Shown here: positions 559 through 22,633 of the stretch, piece after piece
Numbering within the stretch: position 1 is the stretch's first letter
Layout of the letters: the number at the start of each line of letters is the position of its first letter
Position numbers and translations under genes: made by a program
Source of the DNA: a virus
Virus record (IMG/VR): IMGVR_UViG_3300040807_000774
Location: 1 to 22,858 of that record
Direction: 5' to 3' (one strand)
DNA: 22,858 nucleotides
Notes under the pieces: generated by a model
Databases searched by the model: none
The model's input: only the letters and a program-made list of their open reading frames with translations
Told to the model about the DNA's origin: nothing

Positions 559-1252
559 AATATTGTCCTAAGAAAAAATCTGCTACTTGTTTGTTCCTAT
601 CCTTACTCATATGATGTAGATCGTCATTAAACAGATTAAGTTTTTTATCCTTTAGATGAAATATTCTGTGTTTTATCTTTTCTGTCAATGGTAGTTCCCA
701 ATGCACATAACAGTCAGGTAAGTGATTGATGTGCTCCTGTTTTAAATAGTCTACTTCGTCTTTACGCCAACACCATTCTGGTATAAAAGTATAATATGCG
801 TGTTTAATATAGTTATCTAAAAAATATTCTATATTTTCCTTTTTGGGTATATCTCTGTGCGTTGTAAGCACACCATTGTCCAATCGTCTAAAAAAGTAAC
901 TGTACATCACAAACACGTTTTTTACATCAAATAATTCTTGTGCACGGTCATGGATTATACGTATAGTATCGTTGCCTGCGCCGTCTACTGCCAAGTTAAT
1001 TGTAGGAATATCCAAATGTTCTGCCAACTGACTGGCCCAACTGTTGTCTACATCGTCTCCTTGGTTAACAGTAAAACTATCTCCCAAACATATGTTTACT
1101 GGTTTGCCTACAAGATCTGTATATTCAGGTCCGCGGAATCCCCAACTGTTAAAGTTTGCCCAGTAGGGCAGCAGCTCTTGTGTATAGCAGTGTACACACT
1201 GATGTGACTGATTGGATCTACGAGTGTATATGTCAAAGTCTTCAATTAGCAT
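551..1252 (-). CDS. SGNH/GDSL-family hydrolase
   Basis: This 233-aa protein has the blocks of an SGNH/GDSL esterase: GDSF with the nucleophile candidate Ser59, a GAGND block with Gly93 and Asn94, and a C-terminal DDLHH with the Asp/His pair near residues 210-214. The stretch SWGFRGPEY just before block I is common in members that act on sugars or cell envelope polymers. The family hydrolyses or transfers acyl groups, often O-acetyl on polysaccharides; the substrate here is unknown. There is a CVHC motif at residues 19-22 that could bind a metal or form a disulfide. No signal peptide is visible, so it should act in the cytoplasm. It lies 6 bp downstream of a radical-SAM/SPASM gene and overlaps the next gene by 8 bp. 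Context suggests acyl editing of a glycan made by the neighbouring genes; that part is inference. Confidence 0.8.
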   Translation of the reverse strand: MLIEDFDIYTRRSNQSHQCVHCYTQELLPYWANFNSWGFRGPEYTDLVGKPVNICLGDSFTVNQGDDVDNSWASQLAEHLDIPTINLAVDGAGNDTIRIIHDRAQELFDVKNVFVMYSYFFRRLDNGVLTTHRDIPKKENIEYFLDNYIKHAYYTFIPEWCWRKDEVDYLKQEHINHLPDCYVHWELPLTEKIKHRIFHLKDKKLNLFNDDLHHMSKDRNKQVADFFLGQYYA

Positions 1253-1258
1253 TGAACA

Positions 1259-2215: not shown

Positions 2216-3141
2216 TAGTACTTTCCCTTAAGATGTTCCCAGGCAACACCACGTTGTATTTCGTCCATACTCCAGCTAATATATGCCATATCATATAACC
2301 ATTGTTCACGTTCTATATCCATGGGAGGATCTTCTATTAGTTCTATAGGGATACTACAGGGCCCAGTAAGTGCGTCTGGATCTAAACTTACTGTTGGTAT
2401 ACCATCTGTAATACTCTCAAACAACGTGCTGGTGTTATATCCAACTACTGCCCATGCATCTGCTAGCTCTGTCAATAACCCTGGTCCCCCTTCTATATTC
2501 TTTGTAAACTTAGTTCCGTCTGTACTTGGGTTATCTTTATATGTCTTACTTATCGACACTCCTGGCAGTCTTTTTGCATCTGCCCAGCTTAATGGGTTTG
2601 TTTTAGCACTAGGTCGTATCAGTATAGGGCGATCACTGTACTTGCGTATGTCTGTTATTGTTGTATTAAGCCAGTTACGCATACTGCCGTATCTGTCCAT
2701 CATACTCTGAACCACACTGTCATTATTCTTTTGTAATGGTATCAGTATGTGTGTGCCACTCTTACGCCAGGGCTTTACTTCTAATTGCTGTTTAGCTTTG
2801 AGTGCTAGCCATCTGTCACTGGGCGAATTAACATTGTTAAACTTACCAGGTGCAAGCAAATGCCACCAACCTAGTCTCCACTGCCAGTCTTTCCAGGCAC
2901 CATTACGTGCTTGTCTTTTAAATACCGCGGTCTCAAATATCATGTAGGGCTTACCAGTGTTTAACACAAAGTCAAACACTGGATCTTCTCTGAACTTGTC
3001 ACAGTATATGTTGCAGGTAATATAATGATCTGCTTCTGGATAGGGATTGTCAAACCAGTCTACTATCTGTAAGTCAGGATGGACAAACTCCATCTGTTTT
3101 AAAGCACCCTGAAACTGATGTCTAAATGCTAGTACCTTCAT
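2215..3141 (-). CDS. GT-B/capsule-synthesis-like protein, paralogue of the plus-strand gene at 9901-10758
   Basis: This 308-aa protein starts MKVLAFRHQFQGA and has two halves, in the manner of GT-B or capsule-synthesis transferases. The second half contains a TDIRKYSDRPILIRPS strand-loop, then AWAVVGYNTSTLFESI and DGIPTVSLDPDAL, the kind of glycine/serine-rich turn followed by a G-I-P-T/S-V segment seen in capsule polysaccharide and CDP-glycerol transferase-like folds. The same ordered landmarks (TEIRKYYDKPIVLRSH, QGIPSVTTC, and a C-terminal EEWLINM versus EQWLYDM) occur in the 285-aa plus-strand protein, so the two are diverged paralogues. The start overlaps the upstream B12-type radical-SAM gene by ATGA and the stop overlaps the next start by TAATG. 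Specific donor and acceptor are unknown; the fold assignment is by motif resemblance only. Confidence 0.65.
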   Translation of the reverse strand: MKVLAFRHQFQGALKQMEFVHPDLQIVDWFDNPYPEADHYITCNIYCDKFREDPVFDFVLNTGKPYMIFETAVFKRQARNGAWKDWQWRLGWWHLLAPGKFNNVNSPSDRWLALKAKQQLEVKPWRKSGTHILIPLQKNNDSVVQSMMDRYGSMRNWLNTTITDIRKYSDRPILIRPSAKTNPLSWADAKRLPGVSISKTYKDNPSTDGTKFTKNIEGGPGLLTELADAWAVVGYNTSTLFESITDGIPTVSLDPDALTGPCSIPIELIEDPPMDIEREQWLYDMAYISWSMDEIQRGVAWEHLKGKY

Positions 3142-4739
3142 GCTACTTCCCAGTGGTAAGTGCTGGTGTGATCGTGTAATGCACAGAACTTTTGTATACG
3201 ATCTGCACCGCCCTGTTGGTACTGATCAAAAAACTTACTGGTATAGTCCTGCATATATTCCTGTCTTAGTTGTTCATCTGTCTCTGCCAGTCTTATTCTG
3301 GGCCAGTGTTCGTCATCATAAAAACAGTACAGTGCAAATGTTTTAATTATGCCATTCAGATCAGATTGTTGTATATAAGGTTCTGGCATAGTTAGTGCCC
3401 ACTTGTCCATAAATCCACCGCCTATTGCTCCGCTTTCCCATCCGTTAATATGATCTGGATCCATAAAGCCAGCGTCAACTGCTATCTGCCTAAGTTTAGT
3501 TCCTCTATAAGGTTGAAAGATACTAATGTTAATTCCATCGTACCCTCTGGCATCTCTGACCATCTGTGCAGTTTCCATTATCATGTCTCTGGTTTCAAAT
3601 GGCATGCCCACAATAACATTAAGTCCATATGGTATATTACTGTCGTTAATATGTCCTAAAAATTCTGCATACTTTTCGTTTTTAACTTTACGCATAAGCA
3701 CATTTTCTCTGTACTCTGCGTTGCCGCTTTCGATACCCAAACTGATACGATATATGCCTGCCTCTTTGAGTGCTGCCAGATATTCTGGTCTGCAATTTTC
3801 TATTCGGGTATTCATCCAGAATGGTATTTTATACTTGCCCCACATCTCGCAAAACTTATATACTTCTTTTGCAGGGCGAGCTAAGAAACTATCGTCCTGT
3901 ATCATAATAAGATCAGGATTGTACAGCTCTTTAAACTCTAATAGCTCTTGTTCTACACGGCTAGCATTTTTGCGACGGATAAAGTTACCCACTTCAAATA
4001 CATTTGCTATGTTTCTGGTGTTAGGGCTATTGCAGTATGTGCAGTTGTAAGGACAACCACGGTATGTTTCCATGCTCACAGCGGCATTAAATGTTCTGCC
4101 GCCCATGGGTCTGTTCCAGCGTTTTACTTCAAAACAGGTATAGTCAGGTATAACTTCTTCTATGTTTGTTAAGGGCTGGGGAGCATTTTTGTGTACACCA
4201 TCTCTATCACTATACCAGGTGCCTTTTACATACTTTGTGGTCTCGTCTGCTTTAATACAGTTAATTATATCAACTGCTACACGTTCACCTTCGTATACAC
4301 ACACCTGGTCTACTAAAGGGTTTGCAATTACAAGAGCAGGATCGCTCATTACTAGCACACCGCCCAGTATGTTTGGTATATTTAAATGTTTTATACTGTC
4401 TAACAGTTGTAACCCTATACGGTAAACATCCTCTTGGACACTCATCATAATTAGGTCTGGTTTAAATTGATTTACATGTTCTAGGAAATCTGGAATAATT
4501 TGATCTGGGTCAGCAACATAAAACATGTCTTTGACCTCGTCATCTTTGTTGGCCCTAACGGCACCGATTTCACTTTGCCTAATGTGCTTGTTGCTAAATT
4601 CGCTGCTATACTGTGTGGTTTCAAATATTTCTACTAGACAGCCTTCACGCTTGCCAATAGCGTTTAGTATCGCCATGCTCATTGCTGGCGACATCATCAG
4701 AGGTAGATTGGGATAAACTAGTAAAATTCTTGGGATCAT
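3138..4739 (-). CDS. B12-binding-domain radical-SAM protein
   Basis: The 533-aa protein has an N-terminal Rossmann-like region (about 1-165) starting RILLVYPNLPLMMSP with a later PNILGGVLV segment, as in cobalamin-binding domains of class B radical-SAM enzymes, although the DxHxxG motif of base-off cobalamin binders is not seen. The radical-SAM core follows with RGCPYNCTYC (Cys229, Cys233, Cys236). Downstream landmarks IYRISLGIESG and LNVIVGMPFET fit the Elp3/MiaB-like core of this group. Relatives methylate unactivated carbon or phosphorus, cyclise rings (BchE), or act in antibiotic and lipid pathways. The gene overlaps the next by ATGA and starts 10 bp after a methyltransferase gene. Substrate is unknown; a C-methylation or rearrangement of a sugar or lipid precursor would suit the neighbours. 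Confidence 0.85.
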   Translation of the reverse strand: MIPRILLVYPNLPLMMSPAMSMAILNAIGKREGCLVEIFETTQYSSEFSNKHIRQSEIGAVRANKDDEVKDMFYVADPDQIIPDFLEHVNQFKPDLIMMSVQEDVYRIGLQLLDSIKHLNIPNILGGVLVMSDPALVIANPLVDQVCVYEGERVAVDIINCIKADETTKYVKGTWYSDRDGVHKNAPQPLTNIEEVIPDYTCFEVKRWNRPMGGRTFNAAVSMETYRGCPYNCTYCNSPNTRNIANVFEVGNFIRRKNASRVEQELLEFKELYNPDLIMIQDDSFLARPAKEVYKFCEMWGKYKIPFWMNTRIENCRPEYLAALKEAGIYRISLGIESGNAEYRENVLMRKVKNEKYAEFLGHINDSNIPYGLNVIVGMPFETRDMIMETAQMVRDARGYDGINISIFQPYRGTKLRQIAVDAGFMDPDHINGWESGAIGGGFMDKWALTMPEPYIQQSDLNGIIKTFALYCFYDDEHWPRIRLAETDEQLRQEYMQDYTSKFFDQYQQGGADRIQKFCALHDHTSTYHWEVA

Positions 4740-4749
4740 GCTTTATTTA

Positions 4750-5553
4750 CTAATAAGTTGCGCTGGTGTGATCTTTTTGTCTTACATCAACGTTAGAGTT
4801 GCTATATTCAGTTTTTAATTCATCAACAACGTCATTTACATAACGTCCTTGCATAGGAATATTAAATGGCTGATCTACAGTTTTACGATATGCTGCTACT
4901 ATACTGATGTTTTGTGCTTTACCATCTCTGTTGTGTAGTTCATCGTAAGCACGTTCTAAATCACTGATAGGCATGCGTGGTTTCTTCTGTTCGTAGTTTG
5001 CCCAACCGTCCATTGAGTGTGGCATGTCAACATATTTGCCTGTGTTTTGTGCTAGCCATAAGAACTGCCATTCATAACCGTTTGCTGCGGCAATATCTCT
5101 GAACAGCGCAGGGTGATAGTTGTAAAAGCCGTGATTGATCCAGGGAGCAAATGGCAATACGCATAGCATAACACCGCCTGCACGACATAGGTTGTGCATG
5201 TTTTCAAATACTGTACGCTGATCAAATATATGTTCGCCTGTTCCGTTGTTTGTTACTAGATCAAACTGTTCAGTATAATTGTACTTGTCTTTGAGAATAA
5301 AGTTCAAGTCCATTGCTATGCTGCGTAGCTCTGTATTGATATCGATAGCTAAGTATTCTGGAAATCCCAAATCTTCAAAGTATTCCCAAACATAGTTTAC
5401 AGGTTTGCGTATAGTCTTACCTGCACGTTCACTGCACTGTTGCACCCAACTCTCTGTATAACGGAAACGCTGATTACCCCATTCAACTACTGTGCCCTGT
5501 GTAGTTTTACTTACTTGAGCGCAGGCTAACTGCATAATATTATTAAAAGCCAT
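4750..5553 (-). CDS. Putative class I SAM-dependent methyltransferase
   Basis: This 267-aa protein has the layout of a class I methyltransferase with a degenerate motif I: VVEWGNQRF (22-30) instead of a Gly-rich loop, then YLAIDIN (67-73) as the motif II acidic strand end, and FDLVTNNGTGEHIFD (97-111), which matches the strand-4 region with a 'GEH' instead of the common 'hEH'. Residues after 120 include a VMLCVLPF strand and HGFYNYHPALFRDIA, a segment shared by many sugar or small-molecule methyltransferases in glycan clusters. The ATG overlaps the upstream kinase-methyltransferase stop by TAATG. Residues that define the substrate cannot be recognised. The weak motif I leaves open that it is a non-catalytic partner of the adjacent methyltransferase. 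Confidence 0.65.
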   Translation of the reverse strand: MAFNNIMQLACAQVSKTTQGTVVEWGNQRFRYTESWVQQCSERAGKTIRKPVNYVWEYFEDLGFPEYLAIDINTELRSIAMDLNFILKDKYNYTEQFDLVTNNGTGEHIFDQRTVFENMHNLCRAGGVMLCVLPFAPWINHGFYNYHPALFRDIAAANGYEWQFLWLAQNTGKYVDMPHSMDGWANYEQKKPRMPISDLERAYDELHNRDGKAQNISIVAAYRKTVDQPFNIPMQGRYVNDVVDELKTEYSNSNVDVRQKDHTSATY

Positions 5554-6791
5554 TAGACTTTCCTAAAATGATAGTATTCTCTACGCCCGCTTGGTCTTGC
5601 TTGACCATGGTCAATGATTTCAAACTTGCCTGGTCTTGTAAATGCACGAATCATTGCCTCAGTATGTTGTTGATTGTTAGGCCGATTCTCAAGTTTTTGT
5701 GTTTCATGTACTACTACTCCGCTAGGTACAAGAAGTTCATGGTAGGCATCCACAATTTGTTCTTCGGTTAGCCCGCCAAAGTCACGTAGTTGAATACTTA
5801 CTGCAAGACTTAGTACAATATCATAATAGTCAGTTGCTTTAAACTTCATATAGTCATTGAATGTTCCTGCGTACCATTTTACGTTGGCTGGCTTTTTATC
5901 ATCACTCAACTTTACAAAAGGTTCTACTCCTGTTGCTTTTGCTACATGTGGTGCCATAAGTTTCGTGATGAATCCATCATTGCACCCAATATCAATTAGT
6001 TGTGCATTGCCGTCCCATTGTTGTGCTAGCTCAACTAGCTTCATACGTTGGACTCTATCTTCAGCATCATTGATACCATAACGCTTTTGATACTTGTTCC
6101 ATTCTTTAACTACTTTTTCTGGTGGTTGTGTAAACATTGTCATATTATCCCATATTTCTCGAGGGTCACCCTTACTTAACTCTTTAAACTTAGACTTGTC
6201 AGATAGTTTAGCCATTAGCTCACTTTCCCAACTTTGTCTAGGATCATCTAGACAAATATGTAGTGCTTGTCTAAAGTCATCCTTATTATAAAAACTGTAT
6301 AGGTATCCTAACCTATCACTTAATCTCTCGTGTGCTAAACTGTTTATTGGACACGACATTTCAAAATCTATTAGGCTTATTTCACCATCCTGTATACAAA
6401 AGTTACTTAGCGGAAACTTTGCGAAGTCTTTTGATTTGCTGTTTGGATCCATTCCTGGATAGAAATACATTATATTAGCACGTTCTAGTTCATCTGCAAT
6501 ACAATTAATTTGATCATGATACTTGGTTAAATTGTGTTCATGCCAAGAGTGAAATAGACTTTCGCCAACTTTGGTCATAGCTAGACTATAGTCGGTTTTA
6601 TCTGCACCTATAATGTTAGGAAAATGTAGTTTTCCTTGTAGCCTTTGTAAACATGTTGTTTCTCGTAACCAACAATCATATATGCTACCACGAGCAGGCT
6701 TAACACTTTTTTTATTTCTAGTGCTGTAACTTTTTACAACATGCTCACCTGTCATAAAACACCAGCTGGCTTTGCCCATTGTATACTGCAT
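5553..6791 (-). CDS. Kinase-like domain fused to a SAM methyltransferase domain
   Basis: I place the start at the ATG at 6791, which overlaps the upstream stop (TGATG); a longer frame to 6818 would need GTG. The 412-aa product has an N-terminal kinase-like domain in the style of lipopolysaccharide and aminoglycoside kinases: Lys20 in a HVVKSYS strand, Glu44 on the next helix, a PLSNFCI segment with Asn130, and LIDFE with the metal-binding Asp142. The catalytic HxD loop is not canonical: Asp122 lies eight residues before Asn130 rather than five, so activity is uncertain. The second domain is a class I methyltransferase with motif I DIGCNDG (267-273) followed by ATGVEP and YYDIVLSLAV. Fusion implies a bifunctional enzyme acting on one substrate, possibly a phosphorylated and methylated sugar. 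The substrate is not evident. Confidence 0.75.
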   Translation of the reverse strand: MQYTMGKASWCFMTGEHVVKSYSTRNKKSVKPARGSIYDCWLRETTCLQRLQGKLHFPNIIGADKTDYSLAMTKVGESLFHSWHEHNLTKYHDQINCIADELERANIMYFYPGMDPNSKSKDFAKFPLSNFCIQDGEISLIDFEMSCPINSLAHERLSDRLGYLYSFYNKDDFRQALHICLDDPRQSWESELMAKLSDKSKFKELSKGDPREIWDNMTMFTQPPEKVVKEWNKYQKRYGINDAEDRVQRMKLVELAQQWDGNAQLIDIGCNDGFITKLMAPHVAKATGVEPFVKLSDDKKPANVKWYAGTFNDYMKFKATDYYDIVLSLAVSIQLRDFGGLTEEQIVDAYHELLVPSGVVVHETQKLENRPNNQQHTEAMIRAFTRPGKFEIIDHGQARPSGRREYYHFRKV

Positions 6792-7564
6792 CAGTTTTTG
6801 ATTTCTTTTACTTTCCACATGCGACCTGTGCCGTTAAACTCACCAATAATATTAATGCTCTGTCTGCGATGCTGAGGTTTGATACGTGGCGTAACACTGT
6901 GTACACTATCTTTTACGTTTAGGAACATACAGAAACTATTTGCTACATAAGGTACTTGCTTGACAGGGTTGTGTAAACTATCCTCAACTTGCCTGCCTAA
7001 TTTTTTGTTTACTTCCGTAATTTCACCTGTAACTTCATGTATTGTAAAGTTTCCGCCTAGGCTTTCGTCTTCTGGAAGTCTCATGTATAACAAACCTGCA
7101 TAGATTTCCACAGGATTATCAATGTGTGGTGTCCGACTGGTACCTGTTTCGTCTACTGGTTCGTGAACAACAAACTGACAGTCAGTTACATAACTGCCAG
7201 TATTGTCTATGTCACGTACCGTTACAGGCTTGCTATACATGTCATCGAGATATTGAGGATAAAGTTCCTCAATCCAGGGCTCGAATAAGTTTATACACTC
7301 TCTGAAGTAATCAGAACTTGTATGGTATTCAAAGAACTCCTGCCATATGTTACTGATCTTACCTTCAACTAGTGCAGGGTTAGACTTATAACGATATGTT
7401 ATGCCACCATCATGTGGCTGTGTACTACATACAAGTTCTTGCGGAAATGTTTCTGCAAGTTCTTTGTAAATGTAATCGGGCAGTGCCTCATCCACACATA
7501 CATGTGGATATGGGTGCTTGAATACAGTTTTCACATTTTGTAGTACACTTATTTTGCCGTTCAT
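6791..7564 (-). CDS. 2-oxoglutarate/Fe(II)-dependent oxygenase-like protein
   Basis: The 257-aa protein has the facial triad of the 2OG-Fe(II) oxygenase (prolyl-4-hydroxylase-like) superfamily: HID at 147-149, a distal histidine in DSVHSVTPR (His222), and an Arg-x-Ser pair (Arg234, Ser236 in RRQSINI) suited to binding the 2-oxoglutarate carboxylate. The N-terminal PHVCVDEALPDYIYKEL segment is typical of these phage and bacterial oxygenases. The family hydroxylates proteins, nucleobases, lipids or small molecules. T4-like marine phages often carry such genes near glycan or tail-modification genes, but targets are rarely known. The gene overlaps its neighbours on both sides by single bases (TAATG and TGATG), so its product is likely made with the kinase-methyltransferase and the membrane protein. 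Confidence 0.85.
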   Translation of the reverse strand: MNGKISVLQNVKTVFKHPYPHVCVDEALPDYIYKELAETFPQELVCSTQPHDGGITYRYKSNPALVEGKISNIWQEFFEYHTSSDYFRECINLFEPWIEELYPQYLDDMYSKPVTVRDIDNTGSYVTDCQFVVHEPVDETGTSRTPHIDNPVEIYAGLLYMRLPEDESLGGNFTIHEVTGEITEVNKKLGRQVEDSLHNPVKQVPYVANSFCMFLNVKDSVHSVTPRIKPQHRRQSINIIGEFNGTGRMWKVKEIKN

Positions 7565-8997
7565 TAGCTTATTGGTCCCATGGGAGTTGGATTAACTGGC
7601 ATTGTAGTATATACTGGTTGAGGTTGCTTTTGCATAGGATCATATGCTGAACTTGCTTGACTAGGTGGATTGTTTTTCAAACTATTAGTTTGATTTTGTG
7701 CATCACTCTGTCCACGTAGCGCAGTCTTAATGTCGTTGTTGTCCATCACGCTATCCATTAGGATACCAAAGCCAGCTGGGTTTTTACCACTAGCAGCGCC
7801 ACCATAGTTACTTGCTTTCCAACTTACCGCACCTTCACCTCTGGGGAACCAAACATCAACTTGTGATGTGGTGTCAAATCTGTTCCAGTGTAGGACCATG
7901 TTGTCACCAACATAAACTTCTGCTTCGTTGTCACATGCTATAGCAATAGTATAATAGCCTTCTAGTGGAATATTAAACTTAACACTGCCTTCCCAGGTAG
8001 CACGATTGTCAGTGGGCCACAAACTATTATTGTTCATAAAGTTACAATAGGCACCATTTGTGACACGATGAAGTTGCGTGTGCTGTCCATTATTTGTTTG
8101 GAAGTTGTTTTGTTCAATCATACCTCTGTTAAGAACTGTTAGCTTTGCGCTATTATGACTAAATGTACCGTTAGCACCAGTTGGTTTTGTAAGTCCTGTG
8201 TTCTTGGGCGCAATGCCATTACAAACTAATGTTGTAACAACAGGAATAACGATACTAGCAATAGCAGCACCAACTGTTTCTGGTGTACTCCAAAGCATCC
8301 AGTACACGCTCATGCTATTTGCAATACTGGTTGTAATAACACTGTTCAATAGGTCCTTGTTTACCTGTCCTTTAATACCTGGAATGTTATAAATTACAGG
8401 CGTAATAAAGTAAGCAATGCTTGCGGCAGCGCCATAGAATACAATACTAGCACCAGTACTAGGCAAACTTGCTGCTGCGGCTTTTGCTGCTAAGGCAAAG
8501 CCATTAATACTAAAGATACTTGCTTGATTTGGGTCTTCAGGGCCTTTATAAGTAAACGCTAGAATAACGCCTGTGCTGAGTGCGCTGCCTAGTGCTAGAC
8601 TACAAGCATTTGCACTTACCCATTCATATGCTTCTTCGCCATACTTTACTACTGCTTCAGCACCTTCTTCTAGATAATGTTCAGTTGTTTTAAGACCGTC
8701 TTGATATTCTTTTGGTAAGCTGTTCCAACCCTCTTGTAAAAGGTTAGTGCTCAAATCACCTGCATTGTGTGTTACAGTAGCTACAGTTGCCTGAGGATTT
8801 GCTGCTAGACTATAACTGTAGTTGTAAGCATCTGTAAGTGCTTTGCTTGTGTCTTTGTAAGCGTCGCTAGCATAGTGTTCAGTTGGCTGAATAACATTAT
8901 CGTCAACCCACCCAGTAGCACTGTTTACAGCGTCTTTGGTATCATTGTATGCATTTTCAATATCGTGTCCCCACGTGGATGGATTATACCAACTCAT
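7564..8997 (-). CDS. Multi-pass membrane protein with a C-terminal PA14-like beta domain
   Basis: I do not recognise the whole 477-aa protein. Residues 1-128 are hydrophilic and helical, with heptad-like repeats of short acidic/aromatic motifs (NAYNDTKDAV, SDAYKDTSKA). Residues about 130-260 hold several hydrophobic segments (near 130-150, 163-178, 183-203, 216-236, 241-260) consistent with a multi-pass membrane region rich in small residues. Residues about 330-415 form a beta-rich unit, WEGSVKFNIPLEGYYTIAIA followed by DNEAEVYVGDN, WNRF and KNPAGFGILM, resembling the PA14-like carbohydrate-binding modules found in virion proteins of marine T4-like phages. The tail is rich in Gln, Pro and Asn. 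A membrane-inserting, glycan-binding virion or envelope protein is one reading; pore formation is another. Both are inference. Start and stop overlap neighbours by TAATG. Confidence 0.6.
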   Translation of the reverse strand: MSWYNPSTWGHDIENAYNDTKDAVNSATGWVDDNVIQPTEHYASDAYKDTSKALTDAYNYSYSLAANPQATVATVTHNAGDLSTNLLQEGWNSLPKEYQDGLKTTEHYLEEGAEAVVKYGEEAYEWVSANACSLALGSALSTGVILAFTYKGPEDPNQASIFSINGFALAAKAAAASLPSTGASIVFYGAAASIAYFITPVIYNIPGIKGQVNKDLLNSVITTSIANSMSVYWMLWSTPETVGAAIASIVIPVVTTLVCNGIAPKNTGLTKPTGANGTFSHNSAKLTVLNRGMIEQNNFQTNNGQHTQLHRVTNGAYCNFMNNNSLWPTDNRATWEGSVKFNIPLEGYYTIAIACDNEAEVYVGDNMVLHWNRFDTTSQVDVWFPRGEGAVSWKASNYGGAASGKNPAGFGILMDSVMDNNDIKTALRGQSDAQNQTNSLKNNPPSQASSAYDPMQKQPQPVYTTMPVNPTPMGPIS

Positions 8998-9887
8998 TAC
9001 TTTATTCCTTTTGATTTAACTTGTTGCTCCGCATCATATTCATGCGGGTTCTTTAATTTTTCTTGGCGTATTTGAGATTTAGTTACATGTCTCAAATCCT
9101 GCCACCATGGATTGGTGTCGAAATGTTGACTGCGATTACCGTAAACATCTCCTACCAAACTCTTACCCACTTCCTTTCGAAAGCCTTTAAGGTGATCCAT
9201 ATACTTCCCTAGTACACTGTTGATAAACACATGACCAGATTGGCCCGGGCCGCCTAAGTCTCTATGTCCTGCGTCTGCAAAGTCCTGTACCAGTTCACCA
9301 AATATAAAACTATCATGACTTTCTTCGTGATTAAAGATATCATCACTTTCATATATCCATCGCCACTGTTCCATAAACTCAGCAAACTGTGGATGGTGTC
9401 TGTTAAACATCATCCAGCCACACTCAGGCCAAGTTTTACGTCCTAAGTGTGTAGTAAGTTGTTGTTCACCGGGAGCAATCTCTTGCAAAAACTCCATGGG
9501 CATTGGAGTGTGTGTACGCACATCGCCGTCACACCAAATCATTATATCCGCATCAGTGTTTTTTGCAAAGTGCCAGAGAGCAAATACTTTGTTTGCAAAG
9601 CGACTTGCGTCCCATAGAAAACTTTTCTTTGTCTTGTCTTTGTTCCAGCCGTGAGCATGTGGATTATCTTTGTGACGCTCCTGCCATGCTTTAAGATCTG
9701 GCAATGTGCTACGTTGGTCCAATACTTCTATGTTGTCAGCGTTATATGTGTTGGGCTCATGGTCTTCTGCATATATCGTTAACTTTACTTCAGTAGGCCA
9801 GTTTTGTAGGAAACCCTGTATGAAGTGATCTCCATACTTCTTATAACCGGTCTTGTGCCATGTACTAAATACTGATAATGTACGCAT
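8997..9887 (-). CDS. GT-A-like glycosyltransferase
   Basis: I chose the ATG at 9887 (MRTLSVFSTWHK, 296 aa), which opens directly into the first beta strand; another in-frame ATG at 9902 would add five residues and overlap the divergent gene start. The protein has a GT-A outline: an N-terminal strand, LTIYAEDHEP, and the DADIMIWCDGDVRTHTP segment with a DxD-type metal and nucleotide-sugar binding motif (Asp120, Asp122). CGWMMFNRHHP and the later DSFIFGELV fit acceptor-side helices of families such as GT8 or the NTP-transferase-like group. There is no membrane segment, so it would act in the cytoplasm or at the inner membrane face. The stop overlaps the next start by TAATG. Donor sugar is unknown. 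I see no strong Shine-Dalgarno at either start. Confidence 0.75.
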   Translation of the reverse strand: MRTLSVFSTWHKTGYKKYGDHFIQGFLQNWPTEVKLTIYAEDHEPNTYNADNIEVLDQRSTLPDLKAWQERHKDNPHAHGWNKDKTKKSFLWDASRFANKVFALWHFAKNTDADIMIWCDGDVRTHTPMPMEFLQEIAPGEQQLTTHLGRKTWPECGWMMFNRHHPQFAEFMEQWRWIYESDDIFNHEESHDSFIFGELVQDFADAGHRDLGGPGQSGHVFINSVLGKYMDHLKGFRKEVGKSLVGDVYGNRSQHFDTNPWWQDLRHVTKSQIRQEKLKNPHEYDAEQQVKSKGIK

Positions 9888-9900
9888 ATTATTATTTACC

Positions 9901-10758
9901 ATGAAGATAGCTCACTTTCCAAATAACTTGCCGGGTAACAAGGATATGGTATATCCACAACTACTTAGCGCAATAGAATCTACAGACGAACTAGTTGTGG
10001 GCAGCATGGATGCTGACGCTGCTCTTATTTGGAGTGTACTGTGGTTTGGAAAGATGGGTGGCAATAAAAGAGTTTGGGATCACTATCGTGCACAAGGTAA
10101 GCCAGTTGTAGTGATAGAAGTTGGCGGTCTAATACGTAACGAAACTTGGAAGTTAGGTATTAATGGTATCAATCGTGACGCTGACTTTGCACTTGAAGTG
10201 GGTGTAAATCCTGACAGGGTCAAGCAATTAGGCATTGAAAGAGCACCGTGGGTGTTTGAGGACAAGCCCTACATATTAATATGCGGACAGCATGCTCATA
10301 GTTTACAGTGGGAGGACATGCCAGACATGGACACGTATTTCCGTGAAACTGTAACAGAGATACGCAAATACTATGACAAGCCTATTGTACTACGATCTCA
10401 TCCACGTTATAGAGAACGTGTGCACTTTCAAATACAAGACGAACAATGGTACAAAGATCAAGGATGCGAATGGAATATTGCCAAACAAGTCCAGAAAACC
10501 TACGACAGTTTTGATTTAGAAGACCAACTAAAAGAAACTTATTTTACAGTTAGTCACAGCAGTAACGCAGGCGTTAACAGCATTATACAGGGTATACCTT
10601 CTGTTACTACCTGTCATAGTCTTGCTTGGGAAATGAGTAGTAAGTTTAAAGAAATTTTCCATCCTAGACGTGAGGAATGGCTTATAAACATGTGTAATAT
10701 AGAATGGCGTGCAGATGAGATAGGAACGCAATGGCAGCGTTTAAGAACTAAGCTCTAG
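9901..10758 (+). CDS. GT-B/capsule-synthesis-like protein, the only plus-strand gene
   Basis: The frame stays open upstream to 9853, but the ATG at 9901 (MKIAHFPNNLPG, 285 aa) gives the same strand-first start as the paralogue at 2215-3141. Shared landmarks in order are GKPVVVIE, a W-K-LG-NGIN stretch, TEIRKYYDKPIVLRSHP, a serine-rich SHSSNAGV loop, IIQGIPSVTTC and REEWLINM. The C-terminal half resembles capsule polysaccharide or CDP-glycerol transferase-like folds. The gene is wedged into a minus-strand cluster: its start abuts the divergent glycosyltransferase start and its last 11 bp overlap the convergent methyltransferase end. A weak promoter-like pair, TTGTGC (9853-9858) and GATAAT (9874-9879) with 15 bp between, lies upstream inside the divergent gene. 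No plus-strand terminator follows. Substrate unknown. Confidence 0.7.
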   Translation: MKIAHFPNNLPGNKDMVYPQLLSAIESTDELVVGSMDADAALIWSVLWFGKMGGNKRVWDHYRAQGKPVVVIEVGGLIRNETWKLGINGINRDADFALEVGVNPDRVKQLGIERAPWVFEDKPYILICGQHAHSLQWEDMPDMDTYFRETVTEIRKYYDKPIVLRSHPRYRERVHFQIQDEQWYKDQGCEWNIAKQVQKTYDSFDLEDQLKETYFTVSHSSNAGVNSIIQGIPSVTTCHSLAWEMSSKFKEIFHPRREEWLINMCNIEWRADEIGTQWQRLRTKL

Positions 10759-11506
10759 AGTTATATCTATAGTCAAACACTTCGCCATTTAGCCATTGGG
10801 TAAGTAGTCCTTGATCTGACAAATAGTTTTTAGCTAATACAACGTCACGTGCACTAGCACTTAATAGATCCTTGTCAACTAAGTCTCCCCATGTAGTAGA
10901 CTTGTCTAACGGTTCGCTGTTCTTATAGACTACACAATCAATGCCATCTACAAACTTTGGCTTACGAAAGTAAGCATCCTTAACATCAAATCCTGCAATA
11001 GCAAGTAGGTAAATTAACTGCGGCAGTGTGAAAGTAAACAACTGATTGTTATAACAATAACTTTCAAAACGTCCATAGTAAACATTAATAGTACTTGGCA
11101 CATACAAGTATAACATTCCTTGTGGATCTAAAATTCTATTGATTTCAAATAGTAGATCTAAAGGACTATGTGCAAACTGTAGTGAGTCATGACACCAAAC
11201 GATATCCTGTGACTTATCATTAAGAACTGTAAGTCCTAGGTTAAAGTCTTGTTTAATGCGCCTAACGTTTTTTACTTTTAGATCAGGTGGTTGGACAATG
11301 TCTAGTGCAGTGCATTTGATATTAAGTGGCTGTGGATTTTCTTCGTCTTGATCCGTTAGAGTAGCCCAATAGTTTATATCTAACTGTTCCTTACCACATC
11401 CAATATCGCATACACGCTTGATGCTCTGTAAAAATTCAATATGATTGCAAAACTCTTCTAGTGTTTCTCTACTATGAGCATGACTTTCTTCTGAAATTGT
11501 AAACAT
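10748..11506 (-). CDS. Class I SAM-dependent methyltransferase
   Basis: The 252-aa protein shows a clear methyltransferase core of the Methyltransf_11 type: motif I RVCDIGCGK (31-39), an acidic strand end in CTALDIVQPP, DFNLG for the adenine side, and DIVWCHDSLQFAHSP with RILDPQGMLYLYVP as the strand 4-5 region. The C-terminal part (TLPQLIYLLAIAGFDV) is the usual helix near the substrate pocket of small-molecule and sugar methyltransferases. No DNA-recognition domain and no DPPY/NPPF motif is present, so a DNA methylase is unlikely. The start overlaps the upstream 107-aa gene by TGATG, and the end runs 11 bp into the convergent plus-strand gene. Its substrate is unknown. Confidence 0.8.
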   Translation of the reverse strand: MFTISEESHAHSRETLEEFCNHIEFLQSIKRVCDIGCGKEQLDINYWATLTDQDEENPQPLNIKCTALDIVQPPDLKVKNVRRIKQDFNLGLTVLNDKSQDIVWCHDSLQFAHSPLDLLFEINRILDPQGMLYLYVPSTINVYYGRFESYCYNNQLFTFTLPQLIYLLAIAGFDVKDAYFRKPKFVDGIDCVVYKNSEPLDKSTTWGDLVDKDLLSASARDVVLAKNYLSDQGLLTQWLNGEVFDYRYNSRA

Positions 11507-11829
11507 CAGCTAAGAGCTCCTATTAATGACCATTGCCTAGCGTTCTGCCAAGTTTCGTCAAACAGTTCCAAATTATGTCGAATTTTTCTTATGCTAGTAT
11601 CAGTAGGACGTTTAACAGCTAGTAATGCTTCACTATGAGCTTGGTTGAGATACCTATCAGCAGTACTAAACAATGCTTGACAATCTCTATAGCGTTTCCA
11701 ACCTTCCCTACTGGTTTCTTTGTCACGCATTGTTTTAAGTAGACTGTATTGCTCTACATCAAACTTTTCACGTGATTGCTCCACTTCCAGTAGTAGATTA
11801 TATGCTGCATCGTATTTAGACAGAGACAT
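11506..11829 (-). CDS. Small helical protein, unknown function
   Basis: This 107-aa product is predicted by eye to be almost entirely helical and highly charged, with no cysteine pair, membrane segment or known motif (it has one Cys, in DCQALF). It is sandwiched between a twitch-type radical-SAM gene, with which it overlaps by 14 bp, and a methyltransferase gene, with which it overlaps by TGATG. Such tight coupling suggests a partner or adaptor protein of one of these enzymes. It does not look like a RiPP leader-core precursor: there is no Gly-Gly cleavage site and no residue-biased core. I do not recognise the family. That it is coding rests on the overlaps and an intact frame. Confidence 0.6.
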   Translation of the reverse strand: MSLSKYDAAYNLLLEVEQSREKFDVEQYSLLKTMRDKETSREGWKRYRDCQALFSTADRYLNQAHSEALLAVKRPTDTSIRKIRHNLELFDETWQNARQWSLIGALS

Positions 11830-12946
11830 ATCGTGCTAACTCTTTAAATGTGTCCTGAAAACTATTTCTGCGATAAACGTCATGTCTTTTAATCCAGTCA
11901 ACAAACAATTTAAATAACTGTTCCTGTACAGGATTATCAAAAAGAGAAATCCACGTTCTAATCTCAGGTTGTGTACTGTTACTTAGTTTGTTTTTAATTA
12001 GTGTTCTTGCATCACCTGTCCACACATCCGGGCGAAAGTGTTCTGGAGAAAATACTTTTCCCAAGTAAGGCTTTGGCAACCCTGTTTGTTTACACCAATC
12101 CCAAAATTCCTGCATATAGAATATATTATATGCTCCAACTGTATGACTAACACTGAGTCTTATATTGTTATAATCCTGTTGATATTGCAACCATTGTTCT
12201 ATATTGTTTAATAGTATATTCCAGTTGCCAGGATATCTAATATATTCATAATGGCTTCCCACACCATCAATACTAAGTTGTACGTCTATTTCTTTAAAGT
12301 TGCTCCATTCTACTAACCAACGTTCGTCTGGCATTACTTGGGTATTAGTAGTGTAATGTAAGGTTACATTACTGGCACGTTCTCGTAATCTTGAAAGAAA
12401 GTCCAGTTGTTTTAGTGGTTCACTTAGAAAAGGCTCTCCGCCCGGTATGTCAATGTGTATAACATTCGGCATGCTAGCGTGTAGCTGGTCTACAATACTA
12501 TCATTCAAATATTCATGACTTTTGATATCTACATTATATAAGTCTTTTTGTTCTTGACGCCATCTACTGCTGGAGTATGGACTACACATCACACACTTCA
12601 AGTTACAGGTATTACCAAATGCAATACTTGTAGTAATATACCCATCCTCTTCTTGCCAGTTGTCATACTGCTCAGTCCAACGTTCGTAATCTAGTTGTCT
12701 TTTACTGGGTGTGCCTATCTGTTCATCCTGTACACAACGTATACAACCCTGAGGGAAACTGCCAGACAGAAACTCCTGTTTGATTCCTTTAAGGAAATCA
12801 CTGTCTGTATATTCTTGTATTGTGTTTTTAGTGATATTATAACGTTCGTTATAACCTTGTGTGCGAAATTTGCAGCAGGGAGATATAACTCCCTGCGGAC
12901 TTATATCTAAACTAGCCCATGGTGCGTAACATTTATACTTGGACAT
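11816..12946 (-). CDS. Twitch-domain radical-SAM protein (cysteine domain N-terminal)
   Basis: The 376-aa protein begins with CYAPW (Cys6), then a SPQGVISPCC segment (Cys24, Cys25) and CIRC (68-71) followed by a conserved-looking E-x-x-G-x-P-S-x-R stretch. These resemble the auxiliary-cluster cysteines of SPASM/twitch domains but stand before, not after, the radical-SAM core. The core has CNLKCVMC (Cys114, Cys118, Cys121), PGGEP (168-172, the SAM-binding GGEP) and LSIDGVG. Proteins of this plan occur in marine phages and bacterial glycan loci, mostly without assigned function. The start overlaps uvsY by 14 bp. It is a paralogue of the protein at 13399-14649 with uvsY between them. The chemistry is likely radical-based modification of a sugar or peptide, but this is inference. 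Confidence 0.85.
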   Translation of the reverse strand: MSKYKCYAPWASLDISPQGVISPCCKFRTQGYNERYNITKNTIQEYTDSDFLKGIKQEFLSGSFPQGCIRCVQDEQIGTPSKRQLDYERWTEQYDNWQEEDGYITTSIAFGNTCNLKCVMCSPYSSSRWRQEQKDLYNVDIKSHEYLNDSIVDQLHASMPNVIHIDIPGGEPFLSEPLKQLDFLSRLRERASNVTLHYTTNTQVMPDERWLVEWSNFKEIDVQLSIDGVGSHYEYIRYPGNWNILLNNIEQWLQYQQDYNNIRLSVSHTVGAYNIFYMQEFWDWCKQTGLPKPYLGKVFSPEHFRPDVWTGDARTLIKNKLSNSTQPEIRTWISLFDNPVQEQLFKLFVDWIKRHDVYRRNSFQDTFKELARYVSV

Positions 12947-13391
12947 CTTCCATACCCGCTGTGCGTAGTCTTACAATATGTCCAGTCATCCACTGTTTAC
13001 TGTCTAGGCCTTTCATAATACCCAACCACTTATTGCGTAGTAGTGCTACTTCATTGATAATGGTTTCAAAGTCTACTACTTCATCTTCACCGTCCACATA
13101 CTTCTCAGCATCTCGACTGCTAAGTGCACGTGGATAGTTTTCCAAATACTTGGTGAAGTGCTTGCGGCGTATCTTACGCAACTGTATGTTTAGATGATTA
13201 AGCACAGCCTCAACTTCTTGTAGTTGATTAAAACGTATTTCAGTTACTGCTGGGAGTTCTTTGATACTTTTCTCAACAAGTCCATGTATGCCAACTTCTT
13301 TACGAGCTTGCTCAAGTTCGTTTTCAAAGTGATCAATGAAGTCAGGTATCTTTCCAATATCTTCTACAACAATAGTATACCAGTTTGCCAT
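12933..13391 (-). CDS. uvsY: UvsY-like recombination mediator
   Basis: The 152-aa protein matches the T4-like UvsY family by its central and C-terminal pattern: a basic helix LRKIRRKHFTKYLENY, then RALSSRDAEKYVDGEDEV and a helix ALLRNKWLGIMKGLDSKQW. UvsY loads UvsX recombinase onto single-stranded DNA coated by gp32, so it acts with the two proteins encoded just upstream in this window. T4 UvsY is 137 aa, so the size fits. The gene has no Shine-Dalgarno in front of its ATG, and a sigma70-like promoter ends seven bases upstream of it (see separate entry). Its end overlaps the next radical-SAM gene by 14 bp. Being placed between two related radical-SAM genes is unusual. Confidence 0.85.
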   Translation of the reverse strand: MANWYTIVVEDIGKIPDFIDHFENELEQARKEVGIHGLVEKSIKELPAVTEIRFNQLQEVEAVLNHLNIQLRKIRRKHFTKYLENYPRALSSRDAEKYVDGEDEVVDFETIINEVALLRNKWLGIMKGLDSKQWMTGHIVRLRTAGMEDVQV

Positions 13392-13397
13392 ATTACT

Positions 13398-13425
13398 ATT
13401 ATACAGTTTCTAATAGATTAGTCAA
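13398..13425 (-). promoter_or_regulatory. Sigma70-like promoter in front of uvsY
   Basis: On the minus strand TTGACT (13425-13420) and a perfect TATAAT (13403-13398) are separated by 16 bp. The elements sit in the last codons of the upstream radical-SAM gene. A start site at the usual distance from the -10 would fall at about 13391, which is the A of the uvsY ATG, so the transcript may be leaderless; this agrees with the lack of a Shine-Dalgarno there. Seen in sequence; promoter use is inferred. Confidence 0.5.
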
Positions 13426-14649
13426 CCAGGGAAAAGTAGACTGCCAGTTAGTGCTTCTGCGCCTGTCTAACTCGGTGAGGTATACTCCAAGTTTTTTTAT
13501 TTCTGCTCTGTTAAGCTCATGTGTGTTGATTTCTTTTTGTATACCTAACATATAGTCTTTAGCAGCCTGTTCCTGTTGTGTATTGCTGGGCATATTTTCA
13601 AGTATTTGTTCAAAGTCAGCATCGAAAAAACCTTTTCCAAATATCCGAGGATGTAAAAACTCGTAAGTCATCACTGTGGTGCTAAAGTAGTGGTTAATCT
13701 GTCTGTGTGTACGAAGTGTGTTTACATAGTCAATTAGATCTGCACTTGTTTTCATTGTAAGACCACAGAGTGTTTGATTAAAGTTAAGATATATCCAATC
13801 CTCAGCGACTACATGTTCGAAGTTACGTTTTACTAAATTTAAGTCTGTTCCAAACCGTACATACTCTTGTTCTGCACCTAGGCAGTCTATACTACACGTT
13901 AAATCAAGTCTACCCAAACATTGTTTCTCTACCAGCTCTTTAAGACTACTAATATACTGTTTAAATTTGGTGTGTTTGATATTTAGGTTGCTTACAATAT
14001 TAAATTCAAGTTCTGGACAAGGGTATTCATTAAACCATTCTAGTGCATAATCAAATTGCCGTTGATAAAATGGTTCTCCTCCTAAGAAATGAAAACGTTT
14101 AACATCATGCCTATGTTGTTCCAAATATTTCCAAAACTTTTGTGTAAGCTCTGGTAAATTATCTACAAGCTGTGCACGATTATCAATCACAACACCGTCT
14201 TGTTCAAATCTGCCATGCTTGAAATTCTCACCACGTATCTTACTGCTAAAACCATCCCAACAATATAAACAACTCAAGTTGCAAATGTTATCAAAATATA
14301 CTTCTACTATTTTGGGAGTTACTTCTATTGCAGAAAGATCAGTTTCTAATTCTACTGGAGTAAGATCTGGTATGGTTAAATGATGCATACGATCACTAGT
14401 ACCGCCTGCATCCTCTACAAGTTTGCAATGTTCACACCCGCGGCCAGGCCATTCGCCTGCTAACATTTTAGTTCTATCTTCAAGTTTTAAGGGGGTGTTA
14501 TGAAACGTTTCAAAATTAGTTGAATCAATAAACTCTTTCTCTACCCGGTGACAGCTACTCGTACTTCCTTCATAAAGTCTTATAGTGCTCCATGTCCATT
14601 TAAGCTGACAAGCTGGCGATTGTTTTATGGGAAAATGCTTATCAGACAC
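13399..14649 (-). CDS. Twitch-domain radical-SAM protein (cysteine domain N-terminal), GTG start
   Basis: The frame opens with GTG at 14649; the next in-frame Met (residue 62) is past the conserved N-terminal block, so the GTG start is favoured. The 416-aa protein has single cysteines at 14 (CQLKWTW) and 33 (SSCHR), CEHC at 72-75, then a radical-SAM motif CNLSCLYC (Cys123, Cys127, Cys130) and LGGEP (189-193). The N-terminal cysteines correspond in order to those of the paralogue at 11816-12946, although here the CC pair is replaced by a single Cys followed by His. A cluster-binding twitch-like domain in front of the core is the likely reading. The gene starts 3 bp after a small acidic protein gene downstream of uvsX and stops 7 bp before the uvsY start. 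Function unknown. Confidence 0.85.
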   Translation of the reverse strand: MSDKHFPIKQSPACQLKWTWSTIRLYEGSTSSCHRVEKEFIDSTNFETFHNTPLKLEDRTKMLAGEWPGRGCEHCKLVEDAGGTSDRMHHLTIPDLTPVELETDLSAIEVTPKIVEVYFDNICNLSCLYCWDGFSSKIRGENFKHGRFEQDGVVIDNRAQLVDNLPELTQKFWKYLEQHRHDVKRFHFLGGEPFYQRQFDYALEWFNEYPCPELEFNIVSNLNIKHTKFKQYISSLKELVEKQCLGRLDLTCSIDCLGAEQEYVRFGTDLNLVKRNFEHVVAEDWIYLNFNQTLCGLTMKTSADLIDYVNTLRTHRQINHYFSTTVMTYEFLHPRIFGKGFFDADFEQILENMPSNTQQEQAAKDYMLGIQKEINTHELNRAEIKKLGVYLTELDRRRSTNWQSTFPWLTNLLETV

Positions 14650-14652
14650 ATC

Positions 14653-14871
14653 TTACTCGTCTTCAAATTCATAATCATCATCTTCAGAATTGGAACTTAA
14701 TTCATCAATTGCTATACCTAAATATTTGTCAGCATTAGCTAGTTCTTCTAAAGTTTCGTCATCAATACCTAGATCAATTAGTTCATTGATCCAATGGTCT
14801 GCTGCATGCTGCTTATCTTTAATATACTGACTAAGAATAATCCAAGTGTCTACAAGAATTTCAGAATCCAT
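14653..14871 (-). CDS. Small acidic helical protein next to uvsX
   Basis: I take the ATG at 14871 (MDSEILVDTWIILSQYI, 72 aa); the longer frame to 14886 would need TTG and would overlap uvsX. A Shine-Dalgarno-like GAGGAA lies just upstream, inside the uvsX end, and the ATG comes one base after the uvsX stop. The protein has helical patches (DTWIILSQYIKDKQHAADH and a leucine-rich ELIDLGIDDETLEEL region) and an acidic tail SEDDDYEFEDE. Small proteins of this style are found near recombination genes in T4-like marine phages, but I know no function. The acidic tail resembles those of gp32 and UvsX, which suggests binding to basic replication proteins; this is inference. Confidence 0.65.
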   Translation of the reverse strand: MDSEILVDTWIILSQYIKDKQHAADHWINELIDLGIDDETLEELANADKYLGIAIDELSSNSEDDDYEFEDE

Positions 14872-14872
14872 A

Positions 14873-15955
14873 TTATTCCTCAACAACCTCTAGCTCGTCT
14901 TGTTCAATTTCTTCTTCTAAAGGTTCATCTTCGGAATTACTTATCAAACCATTTGAAATATCATTCATAATGATTTCAAGTTTTTCACCGGTCCAACCTT
15001 TGCGGAACTCTAGCAATTCTTCGCCAGCGGCTGTAGTATACTTTAGACGATTACCTTGTTTAACAAGTAGCTCTTGCTTTTCAAACATATCAAGCAATCC
15101 ACTGTAGGGATCCATTCCTGACTCGTAAGGAATCTTAACCTGTACGCCTTCAAATGGCTTTGCGTAGCGTGTTTTCATAACCTTACATGCTGCACGAATA
15201 CCACGTACATCACTTACCTTATTACCATCTACATCTTCTTTGAGCTTGAGCTTACGCATTGCTACTACAATACTTGATGCGTAGATAAAGCCCTGTCCGC
15301 CTGAAATCTTATCATCAGGATCAAACATGTCCTGGCTAGCATATGTGTGGTTGGTACACACCATACCAACGTTATAACTACCAATCATGTTAACTGTGTT
15401 ACGCACAAGAGCTGTTAGTGCCTTGGGCTTACGACCCATATCACCTTTCATATCACCTCTATCGAACTGATCAACATCTGTAGGAGTTAGTAGCATGCCT
15501 AGGCTATCAATAACAAACAGAACCTTTGGACGGTCTTCTTCTGCCATAGCACGATAGTCTTTCATAAACGTACTAATAGTCTTAGCAACGTCATCAATCA
15601 TGCTCATGCTTAGTTTGAGTAGTTTGCTTTCATCTGTGTCAACACCTAGTGCCTGTAGCCATGCTTCGTCTAGAGCGTTCTCGCTGTCAACTAGTACAAC
15701 AAAGATACCTTGCTCTTGGGCGTTCTTAACAATGTTAGCACTAGCAAAATAACTCTTACCGGCGCCGCTCTCGCCAGCAAACACTGTAACCTTACCCATT
15801 GGTACACCCTTGTGGAAATCACCACTGATAAGATAGTTTAGTGCATAATTGCCTGTGCTGATCCAGTCAGTTGGATCATGAAACCCAACACTGAGTCCAT
15901 CAATACTTTTTGTAATATCCTTACGGAATTTGCTTACGTCAAAAGGCTTTGCCAT
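14873..15955 (-). CDS. uvsX: UvsX RecA-like recombinase
   Basis: The 360-aa protein is a RecA-family strand-exchange ATPase of the T4 UvsX type. Walker A is GESGAGKS (61-68), Walker B is VLFVID (145-150), and NHTYASQDMFDPDDKISGGQG covers the region equivalent to loop L2. The C-terminus is very acidic (about 340-360), as in UvsX proteins. It works with gp32 (encoded just upstream) and UvsY (12933-13391) in recombination-dependent replication and repair. The ATG at 15955 has a good Shine-Dalgarno, GGAGA, about seven bases before it. The gene follows gp32 after a 56-bp gap that holds a stem-loop, so its level may be set by read-through from the gp32 promoter. Size is near the usual 390 aa. Confidence 0.95.
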   Translation of the reverse strand: MAKPFDVSKFRKDITKSIDGLSVGFHDPTDWISTGNYALNYLISGDFHKGVPMGKVTVFAGESGAGKSYFASANIVKNAQEQGIFVVLVDSENALDEAWLQALGVDTDESKLLKLSMSMIDDVAKTISTFMKDYRAMAEEDRPKVLFVIDSLGMLLTPTDVDQFDRGDMKGDMGRKPKALTALVRNTVNMIGSYNVGMVCTNHTYASQDMFDPDDKISGGQGFIYASSIVVAMRKLKLKEDVDGNKVSDVRGIRAACKVMKTRYAKPFEGVQVKIPYESGMDPYSGLLDMFEKQELLVKQGNRLKYTTAAGEELLEFRKGWTGEKLEIIMNDISNGLISNSEDEPLEEEIEQDELEVVEE

Positions 15956-22057: not shown

Positions 22058-22633
22058 TTAGGTATCTGTTTTGGCAAGGACTATTACGCCGCATGCCAAT
22101 CGATCCCCAGCATTACCGGTTTTGAGGCTTTCTTCATCTCCGCCTTGACCTAGATCGTCTTCATCAGCATGAACCACTGCGGCTCTGCCCACGATGCTAC
22201 GATCACCTGTTAGATCAACACGTTTTGAAACAATACTAAAGTTTGCGATTCCTTGATCGTTTGCTTCAATATTGCCTAAGTCCCCCACATGGCCCTGCTC
22301 AAGATCTCCATGATCTATACCGTCAGGATTGTAGTGAGCACCAGCAGATTCACAACCTTTGCTCAGGTCTCCATACTCGTGTATGTGAAACCCATGCTTG
22401 CCAGGTTGTAATCCAGTGATTGTTCCCTTTATTAAGGTAGGACTGTCACCACGCTGCATAAACAGAATGGTGCCTGTCACTGTGTCTGAGTGTTCAAGAT
22501 TGCAGACAGCAATAATGTCCTGTTCTGCTTCTTGTATCTTGTTAACGCTTTCGCAAAAGCATTCAGTTGCCCTAGTTCTAGGGCAACTGTTTTGAATGCT
22601 TTCTAAGCGTTGTTTAACTTGGCTAATATCCAA
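22058..22633 (-). CDS. sodC: Cu/Zn superoxide dismutase with N-terminal extension, TTG start
   Basis: The 191-aa protein has all Cu/Zn SOD active-site residues: copper ligands His83 and His85 (GFHIHEYGD), bridging His100 (GAHYNP), zinc ligands His108, His115 and Asp118 (GHVGDLGN), copper ligand His155 (VVHADEDD), the guiding Arg178, and the Cys94/Cys181 pair for the structural disulfide. It should turn superoxide into peroxide and oxygen. The frame must start at TTG (22633), because an in-frame stop lies upstream and the next ATG (residue 59) is inside the domain; an AAGG Shine-Dalgarno-like site precedes it. Residues 1-40 lie outside the SOD fold, contain CFC and hold a large hairpin in the DNA. 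No signal peptide is seen. The gene sits between structural-type genes, so the enzyme may be made late or even be in the virion. Confidence 0.92.
   Translation of the reverse strand: MDISQVKQRLESIQNSCPRTRATECFCESVNKIQEAEQDIIAVCNLEHSDTVTGTILFMQRGDSPTLIKGTITGLQPGKHGFHIHEYGDLSKGCESAGAHYNPDGIDHGDLEQGHVGDLGNIEANDQGIANFSIVSKRVDLTGDRSIVGRAAVVHADEDDLGQGGDEESLKTGNAGDRLACGVIVLAKTDT
22544..22602 (-). repeat. Large hairpin with alternative pairing, in the 5' coding part of SOD
   Basis: CAGTTGCCCTAG and CTAGGGCAACTG (22564-22589) are perfect 12-bp arms around two bases. Outside them AAAGCATT (22556-22563) and AATGCTTT (22595-22602) add an 8-bp stem with a five-base bulge. On the other side, AACGCTTT (22544-22551) can instead pair with AAAGCATT (22556-22563; one G-T pair in RNA) over a four-base loop, so one arm has two possible partners. 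No T-run follows, so it is not a standard terminator. Confidence 0.7.

Follow-up and report, generated by a model that had tools for sequence, protein, structure and literature searches.

Two N-terminal-twitch radical-SAM genes in exchangeable positions beside the viral recombination gene uvsY

The DNA analysed here, referred to as the window, comprises positions 1 to 22,858 of IMG/VR virus record IMGVR_UViG_3300040807_000774. It carries two radical-SAM genes, NTA (11,816–12,946, minus strand, 376 aa) and NTB (13,399–14,649, minus strand, 416 aa), on either side of uvsY (12,933–13,391, minus strand), the resident core gene for a recombination mediator. Judged by profile scores and cysteine pattern, NTA and NTB are new members of a known family of N-terminal-twitch radical-SAM proteins, and we assign a probability of about 0.6 to the reading that they are phage cargo enzymes, occupying two slots beside uvsY, that tailor a glycan or a precursor. 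The preliminary description of this DNA had placed two twitch-domain radical-SAM paralogues around uvsY, and the open reading frames (ORFs), their coordinates, the NF033640 scores and the PHROG_231 match all agree with it; the 14-bp overlap of uvsY with NTA (12,933–12,946) and the 7-bp spacer between NTB and uvsY (13,392–13,398) were likewise found as given there. The NTA and NTB proteins share 18% identity.

Both proteins match the NCBIfam model NF033640 (N_Twi_rSAM, twitch domain-containing radical SAM protein) over nearly their full length, and both pass its curated cut-off of 170 bits, NTA with 289.9 bits and NTB, nearer the cut-off, with 199.3 bits; these scores were reproduced on the genome record. 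NTA also passes Pfam Radical_SAM (PF04055; 30.3 against a cut-off of 29.5), whereas NTB falls below it (21.6) while retaining all of the motifs (CxxxCxxC, GGEP). A radical-SAM catalytic class is likely for both, and the architecture, in which the twitch domain precedes the radical-SAM core, is well supported and close to certain. NTA does not qualify for the class of enzymes with a C-terminal SPASM domain (PF13186 after the core). BtrN, MoaA, PqqE and anSME similarly combine a radical-SAM core with an auxiliary cysteine site of the G-x4-C ... CxxC type, but in those enzymes the auxiliary domain is C-terminal (PMC9012708), and in NTA and NTB it is N-terminal. The extra cysteines do precede the core, as had been noted, but this order is not the anomaly it was taken for: the very name of NF033640 puts the twitch first, so the reversed order was already known and defines an existing family, from which NTA and NTB show no architectural difference. 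No reaction for this family was found in the literature searched. AlphaFold models of NTA (mean predicted local distance difference test score, pLDDT, 88; predicted template modelling score, pTM, 0.85) and NTB (mean pLDDT 92, pTM 0.90) had only radical-SAM enzymes as their best solved-structure matches, namely SkfB, viperin, anSME, EpeE and MoaA; a sequence search of solved structures gave no match.

The N-terminal cysteines were examined in an alignment of 175 rows, from which 101 representatives with less than 70% identity were taken, including 31 that came from contigs classed as cellular. Among the aligned representative rows, cysteine occupies the columns of NTA C6, C24, C68 and C71 in 95/95, 97/97, 98/98 and 96/98 cases, respectively, a conservation equal to that of C114, C118 and C121 of the core CxxxCxxC motif, and their NTB equivalents are C14, C33, C72 and C75. 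The column of NTA Cys25 is variable (C in 64, H in 15). Since four columns are essentially invariant and that of Cys25 is not, the N-terminal cysteines are best read as one four-cysteine auxiliary cluster site, rather than a five-cysteine site or a chance assembly. The positions originally listed for these cysteines were correct, with Cys25 the one that proved not to be conserved. Their spacing (C, G-x4-C and CxxC, in that order) matches a half-SPASM site. Further support came from a profile of the N-terminal segments, which matched the C-terminal SPASM domain of a radical-SAM protein encoded elsewhere in the window (1,259–2,215, minus strand) with a probability of 94% and an E-value of 1.3e-7 (hhalign); NF033640 also matches the C-terminus of that protein. 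The N-terminal segment is thus homologous to this C-terminal SPASM domain, and both module orders are present in one genome.

The uvsY assignment is based on a PHROG_231 match (E = 5.4e-13) and on the place of the gene beside uvsX, and relatives of UvsY are encoded by 587 stretches in viral contigs. TerL and UvsY of the window show 53% and 54% identity, respectively, to those of the Paride/PA5oct group of cultured jumbo phages. Paride, CBB and Vibrio phage 2.275.O share the order ssb, uvsX, uvsY, with an annotated helicase or P-loop protein soon after uvsY, but have at most one gene between uvsY and the helicase, and no radical-SAM gene was found at uvsX-uvsY in these cultured relatives. In 2.275.O and CBB, uvsY directly follows uvsX; in Paride, an annotated homing endonuclease occupies the slot before uvsY and, with two small genes, separates the two. 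In Pseudomonas phage Paride (L125, 968–5,504) the uvsX annotation is itself interrupted by a 477-aa ORF. The backbone in the viral contigs runs TerL, g780, gp32, uvsX, g77, slot S1, uvsY, slot S2, g107, a methyltransferase and g301b, and S1 and S2 are mostly empty. In the window, S1 holds NTB and S2 holds NTA.

Comparison of uvsX-uvsY synteny among related phages, which the preliminary description had proposed as a check, gives uvsX-(g77)-uvsY as the resident order, with NTA and NTB as the inserted genes. Among the 80 loci recruited by UvsY alone, an N-terminal-twitch gene is found in S1 in 11, in S2 in two and in both slots in none; further loci were recruited by their radical-SAM genes. Both slots are filled in the window and in L084 and L085, which are near-identical contigs; NTB alone is present in L086, L013, L087 and L089, NTA alone in L004, L005 and L091–L094, and neither in L008, L009, L010 and many others. 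The slots also accept other genes: a 695-aa B12-type radical-SAM protein (L028, L030, L031) or unassigned genes in S1, and an unassigned protein of 289–305 aa in S2. Because all four occupancy states occur, NTA and NTB do not behave as a unit and have been independently gained, lost and exchanged. The suggestion that a pair had been inserted around uvsY was thus right in that the flanking genes, and not uvsY, are the insertions, and wrong in treating them as a pair. That NTA and NTB entered together retains next to no probability: both are present in the window and in L084 and L085, but these are outweighed by the loci with either gene alone or with neither, and by the 18% identity of the proteins. 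What looked like an odd gene order becomes a clear case of metabolic cargo carriage by large phages, with core recombination genes standing as fixed posts between which enzymes are swapped one gene at a time, and the natural pairs of near-identical loci with and without these genes are well suited to testing the roles of N-terminal-twitch radical-SAM enzymes.

NTA forms a 1,117-bp cassette with the same 14-bp start/stop overlap at both ends, the left copy being ATGTCCAAGTATAA (uvsY stop and NTA start, 12,933–12,946, minus strand) and the right copy ATGTCTCTGTCTAA (NTA stop and g107 start, 11,816–11,829, minus strand). L086 is 99.5% identical to the window at one flank of NTA and 96.5% at the other, lacks exactly the 1,117 bp of this cassette, and has at the junction a single 14-bp copy identical to ATGTCTCTGTCTAA, the g107-side copy; this difference may be a gain or a loss, as the comparison does not tell its direction. 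In L005, NTA is 93% identical to that of the window and the adjoining g107 only 53%, which indicates that NTA moves as a unit. For NTB, the discordance with the phage backbone follows from comparison of the window with L006, in which UvsX is 100% identical and NTB 61%. In L086, about 270 bp of NTB are closer to L006 (mostly 85–95%) than to the window (68–81%), and the remainder is 93–100% identical to the window. Alleles of the NTB slot are thus both swapped and recombined; in a tree test, NTB following the phage backbone gave an approximately unbiased (AU) p of 0.08. A methyltransferase-domain protein of the window (5,553–6,818, minus strand) is 95% identical in L010 (15488), compared with 66–77% for its island neighbours, a contrast that we take as a sign of single-gene exchange.

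NTA, in S2, opens a large variable island of sugar- and methyl-transfer genes. In G002, the closest long relative, 29 kb separate the end of uvsY (58,580) from the start of a uvsW-type helicase gene (87,814); in G001 the two lie about 22 kb apart, and in G017 12 kb. The window genes from 1 to 11,829 correspond to the uvsY-proximal part of the G002 island and include methyltransferases, two radical-SAM types and an SGNH-like protein, among others. In a Pfam survey of 58 proteins from the three islands, methyltransferases were commonest, followed by cupins, mannose-6-phosphate isomerase C-termini, nucleotidyltransferases, domains of the radical-SAM and B12 types, and glycosyltransferases (families 8, 25 and 61). 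In most of about 76 other viral loci, an NTA-like gene is found at the opposite edge of the island, directly or almost directly upstream of the uvsW-type helicase. As uvsY and uvsW form the two edges of one island, NTA, its first gene, is best placed as island-edge cargo and not as a replication gene. The initial impression of a replication gene inside a metabolic pair does not hold; uvsY instead lies at the border of a metabolic island that extends as far as uvsW. Comparable variable islands with radical-SAM cassettes and glycosyltransferases have been described in T4-like marine myophages (pelagimyophages), for which host-surface change has been proposed as the purpose of the glycosyltransferases (PMC7029224; see also PMC5332604, PMC7150976), and T4-like TARA_ERS488813_N000010 encodes 12 radical-SAM genes (PMC5332604). 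The named island in those phages lies between structural genes (PMC7029224, PMC5332604), whereas the island described here is bounded by uvsY and uvsW, and a further slot precedes uvsY.

The behaviour of the slots and a promoter predicted within NTB are, in our view, the most interesting parts of the finding. A sigma-70-like site (TTGACT-16-TATAAT, 13,398–13,425, minus strand, 11/12 consensus) is located 6 bp before the uvsY ATG, within the final codons and stop of NTB. Sites that match at 10/12 positions or more occur in 31/90 loci, always 5–6 bp before the uvsY ATG, compared with 0.14% of shuffles at 5–7 bp; the loci that bear it are kin, so the 31 are not independent events. Overall promoter counts across the region show no excess (21 versus 18.5 expected), and only this position-specific comparative signal exceeds chance. 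The predicted promoter is kept while the sequence before it differs completely between loci: where S1 is empty, as in L004, it lies between the g77 stop and uvsY; where NTB is present, it is encoded by the last codons of NTB (FPW-LTN-LLETV-stop); and with other S1 cargo (L021, L028) it comes after the cargo gene. In phages that lack the promoter (L064, L080), the NTB-like proteins retain FPWL, but the residues after it are not preserved.

If active, this promoter would start transcription at about the uvsY ATG and give a leaderless transcript; the literature searched gave nothing usable on leaderless promoters in phages of this kind. We read this promoter as the reason why S1 cargo need not silence uvsY, and a promoter in a cargo gene's last codons offers a testable means by which a gene could be inserted while its neighbour stays active. 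NTB would probably be read together with the uvsX-g77 side, and NTA, which overlaps uvsY, probably from the predicted uvsY promoter. Co-timed expression, which had been offered as one explanation of the arrangement, is therefore possible, but it would differ for NTB, which abuts the g77/uvsX side, and NTA, downstream of the predicted promoter. More speculatively, and at well under even odds, the two slots may form a system, in jumbo phages of this group, in which cargo genes move one at a time between fixed positions via short shared junction modules (the 14-bp overlap and the uvsY promoter), with the 3' end of the cargo rebuilding the promoter so that uvsY expression survives the swaps.

As to function, the core cluster of radical-SAM enzymes cleaves S-adenosylmethionine to yield the 5'-deoxyadenosyl radical, and in NTA and NTB this radical would abstract a hydrogen atom from the substrate. 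The auxiliary cluster would bind the substrate or accept an electron, as has been suggested for BtrN, a twitch enzyme; in both BtrN and MoaA it is described as available for these two roles (PMC9012708). The substrate would most likely be a sugar, a nucleotide-sugar or a lipid-linked glycan precursor, and the outcome an altered surface of the infected cell or the virion. A glycan is suggested by the content of the island and by the fusions and neighbours of relatives on cellular contigs. In Synechocystis salina, a single 1,597-aa chain (L140, 7,128–11,921) combines, in this order, Sulfotransferase, SPASM/twitch, Radical_SAM and Aminotransferase III domains, and other cellular-contig relatives adjoin genes for carbamoyltransferase, DegT aminotransferase, asparagine synthase or family-2 glycosyltransferase. 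For the role in glycan or glycan-precursor tailoring taken by itself we put the chances at about even. Several points weigh against the cargo-enzyme reading. Genome neighbourhood is weak evidence, because the slots also hold genes without a recognisable domain; the Pfam SPASM model (PF13186) reaches only 18.3 bits on NTA, below its cut-off of 21.5, over residues 6–56 before the core, and has no match on NTB. Moreover, peptides are frequent substrates of twitch/SPASM enzymes, and peptide-modifying enzymes are among the closest solved structures.

The last two points bear on the possibility that NTA and NTB are peptide- or protein-modifying maturases, similar to those of ribosomally synthesized and post-translationally modified peptides (RiPPs), with a short peptide of the phage or the host as their target. 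The weak NCBIfam SPASM/twitch matches are indeed mostly to peptide maturases, and SkfB, anSME and EpeE are among the structural matches. However, neither gene has a recognised precursor peptide next to it, every specific maturase cut-off was missed by far, and the cellular relatives have sugar- and amino-transfer enzymes as neighbours or fusion partners, so that we regard a maturase role as unlikely. Viperin structures likewise stand among the top fold matches and weak PADLOC pVip matches were obtained, as might be expected of viperin-like antiviral or anti-competitor enzymes that make modified nucleotides; but neither protein belongs to the prokaryotic viperin family NF038283 (22.7 bits for NTA and 21.4 for NTB, against a cut-off of 180 bits), the matches, at 18–23 bits, reflect the shared core only, and, to our knowledge, a twitch domain is not a feature of viperins. 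A defence role of this kind was rejected on these scores, and we hold it to be highly improbable.

A service in replication or recombination, by modification of DNA or of UvsX and UvsY, would account for the place beside uvsY, and the NTA-like genes that many other phages carry directly upstream of the uvsW-type helicase had raised this candidate; it was demoted once uvsY and uvsW were recognised as edges of the same variable island. Most uvsY loci, moreover, lack twitch genes in either slot (those counted above, 11/80 before and 2/80 after uvsY, are the exceptions), and the slots take B12-type radical-SAM and unrelated genes as well. We therefore consider such a role very unlikely; NTA and NTB are probably used in sugar decoration. 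Their rapid gain, loss and mosaicism would also suit recombination passengers of little benefit. All seven presumed metal-binding cysteines are nevertheless kept across the 101 divergent representatives, which argues for selection for activity somewhere and makes mere passengers distinctly improbable. The reading of NTA and NTB as glycan-tailoring cargo enzymes is accordingly the one that we retain.

On the minus strand, the core recombinase gene uvsX (14,873–15,955; PHROG_97, E = 2e-70; Pfam RecA) is followed by g77 (14,653–14,886), which encodes a small acidic protein between uvsX and uvsY whose position is conserved in relatives, and g107 (11,506–11,829, minus strand), also of conserved position, encodes a small protein after S2. 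A gene for a gp32-like protein lies upstream with uvsX. The island part of the window encodes, besides the SPASM radical-SAM protein described above, a radical-SAM protein with a B12-binding domain (3,138–4,739, minus strand) and a 477-aa protein (7,564–8,997, minus strand) that has hydrophobic stretches, matches no Pfam family and is 91% identical in L087. A gene for copper/zinc superoxide dismutase (22,058–22,633, minus strand; PF00080, 157 bits) is found near TerL, with 96–97% identity in relatives such as L087, L018 and L005.

N-terminal-twitch genes also occur in larger groups. Three contigs binned as Pelagibacter, Rickettsiales and Betaproteobacteria (L129, L130 and L131) carry five such genes each, mostly in tandem and together with SGNH-like genes; these may be phage contigs placed in the wrong bin. 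Several are also present in Vibrio phages K566 and K567; K566 (L128, 7,956–14,698) has four N-terminal-twitch radical-SAM genes close together and is a possible experimental model.

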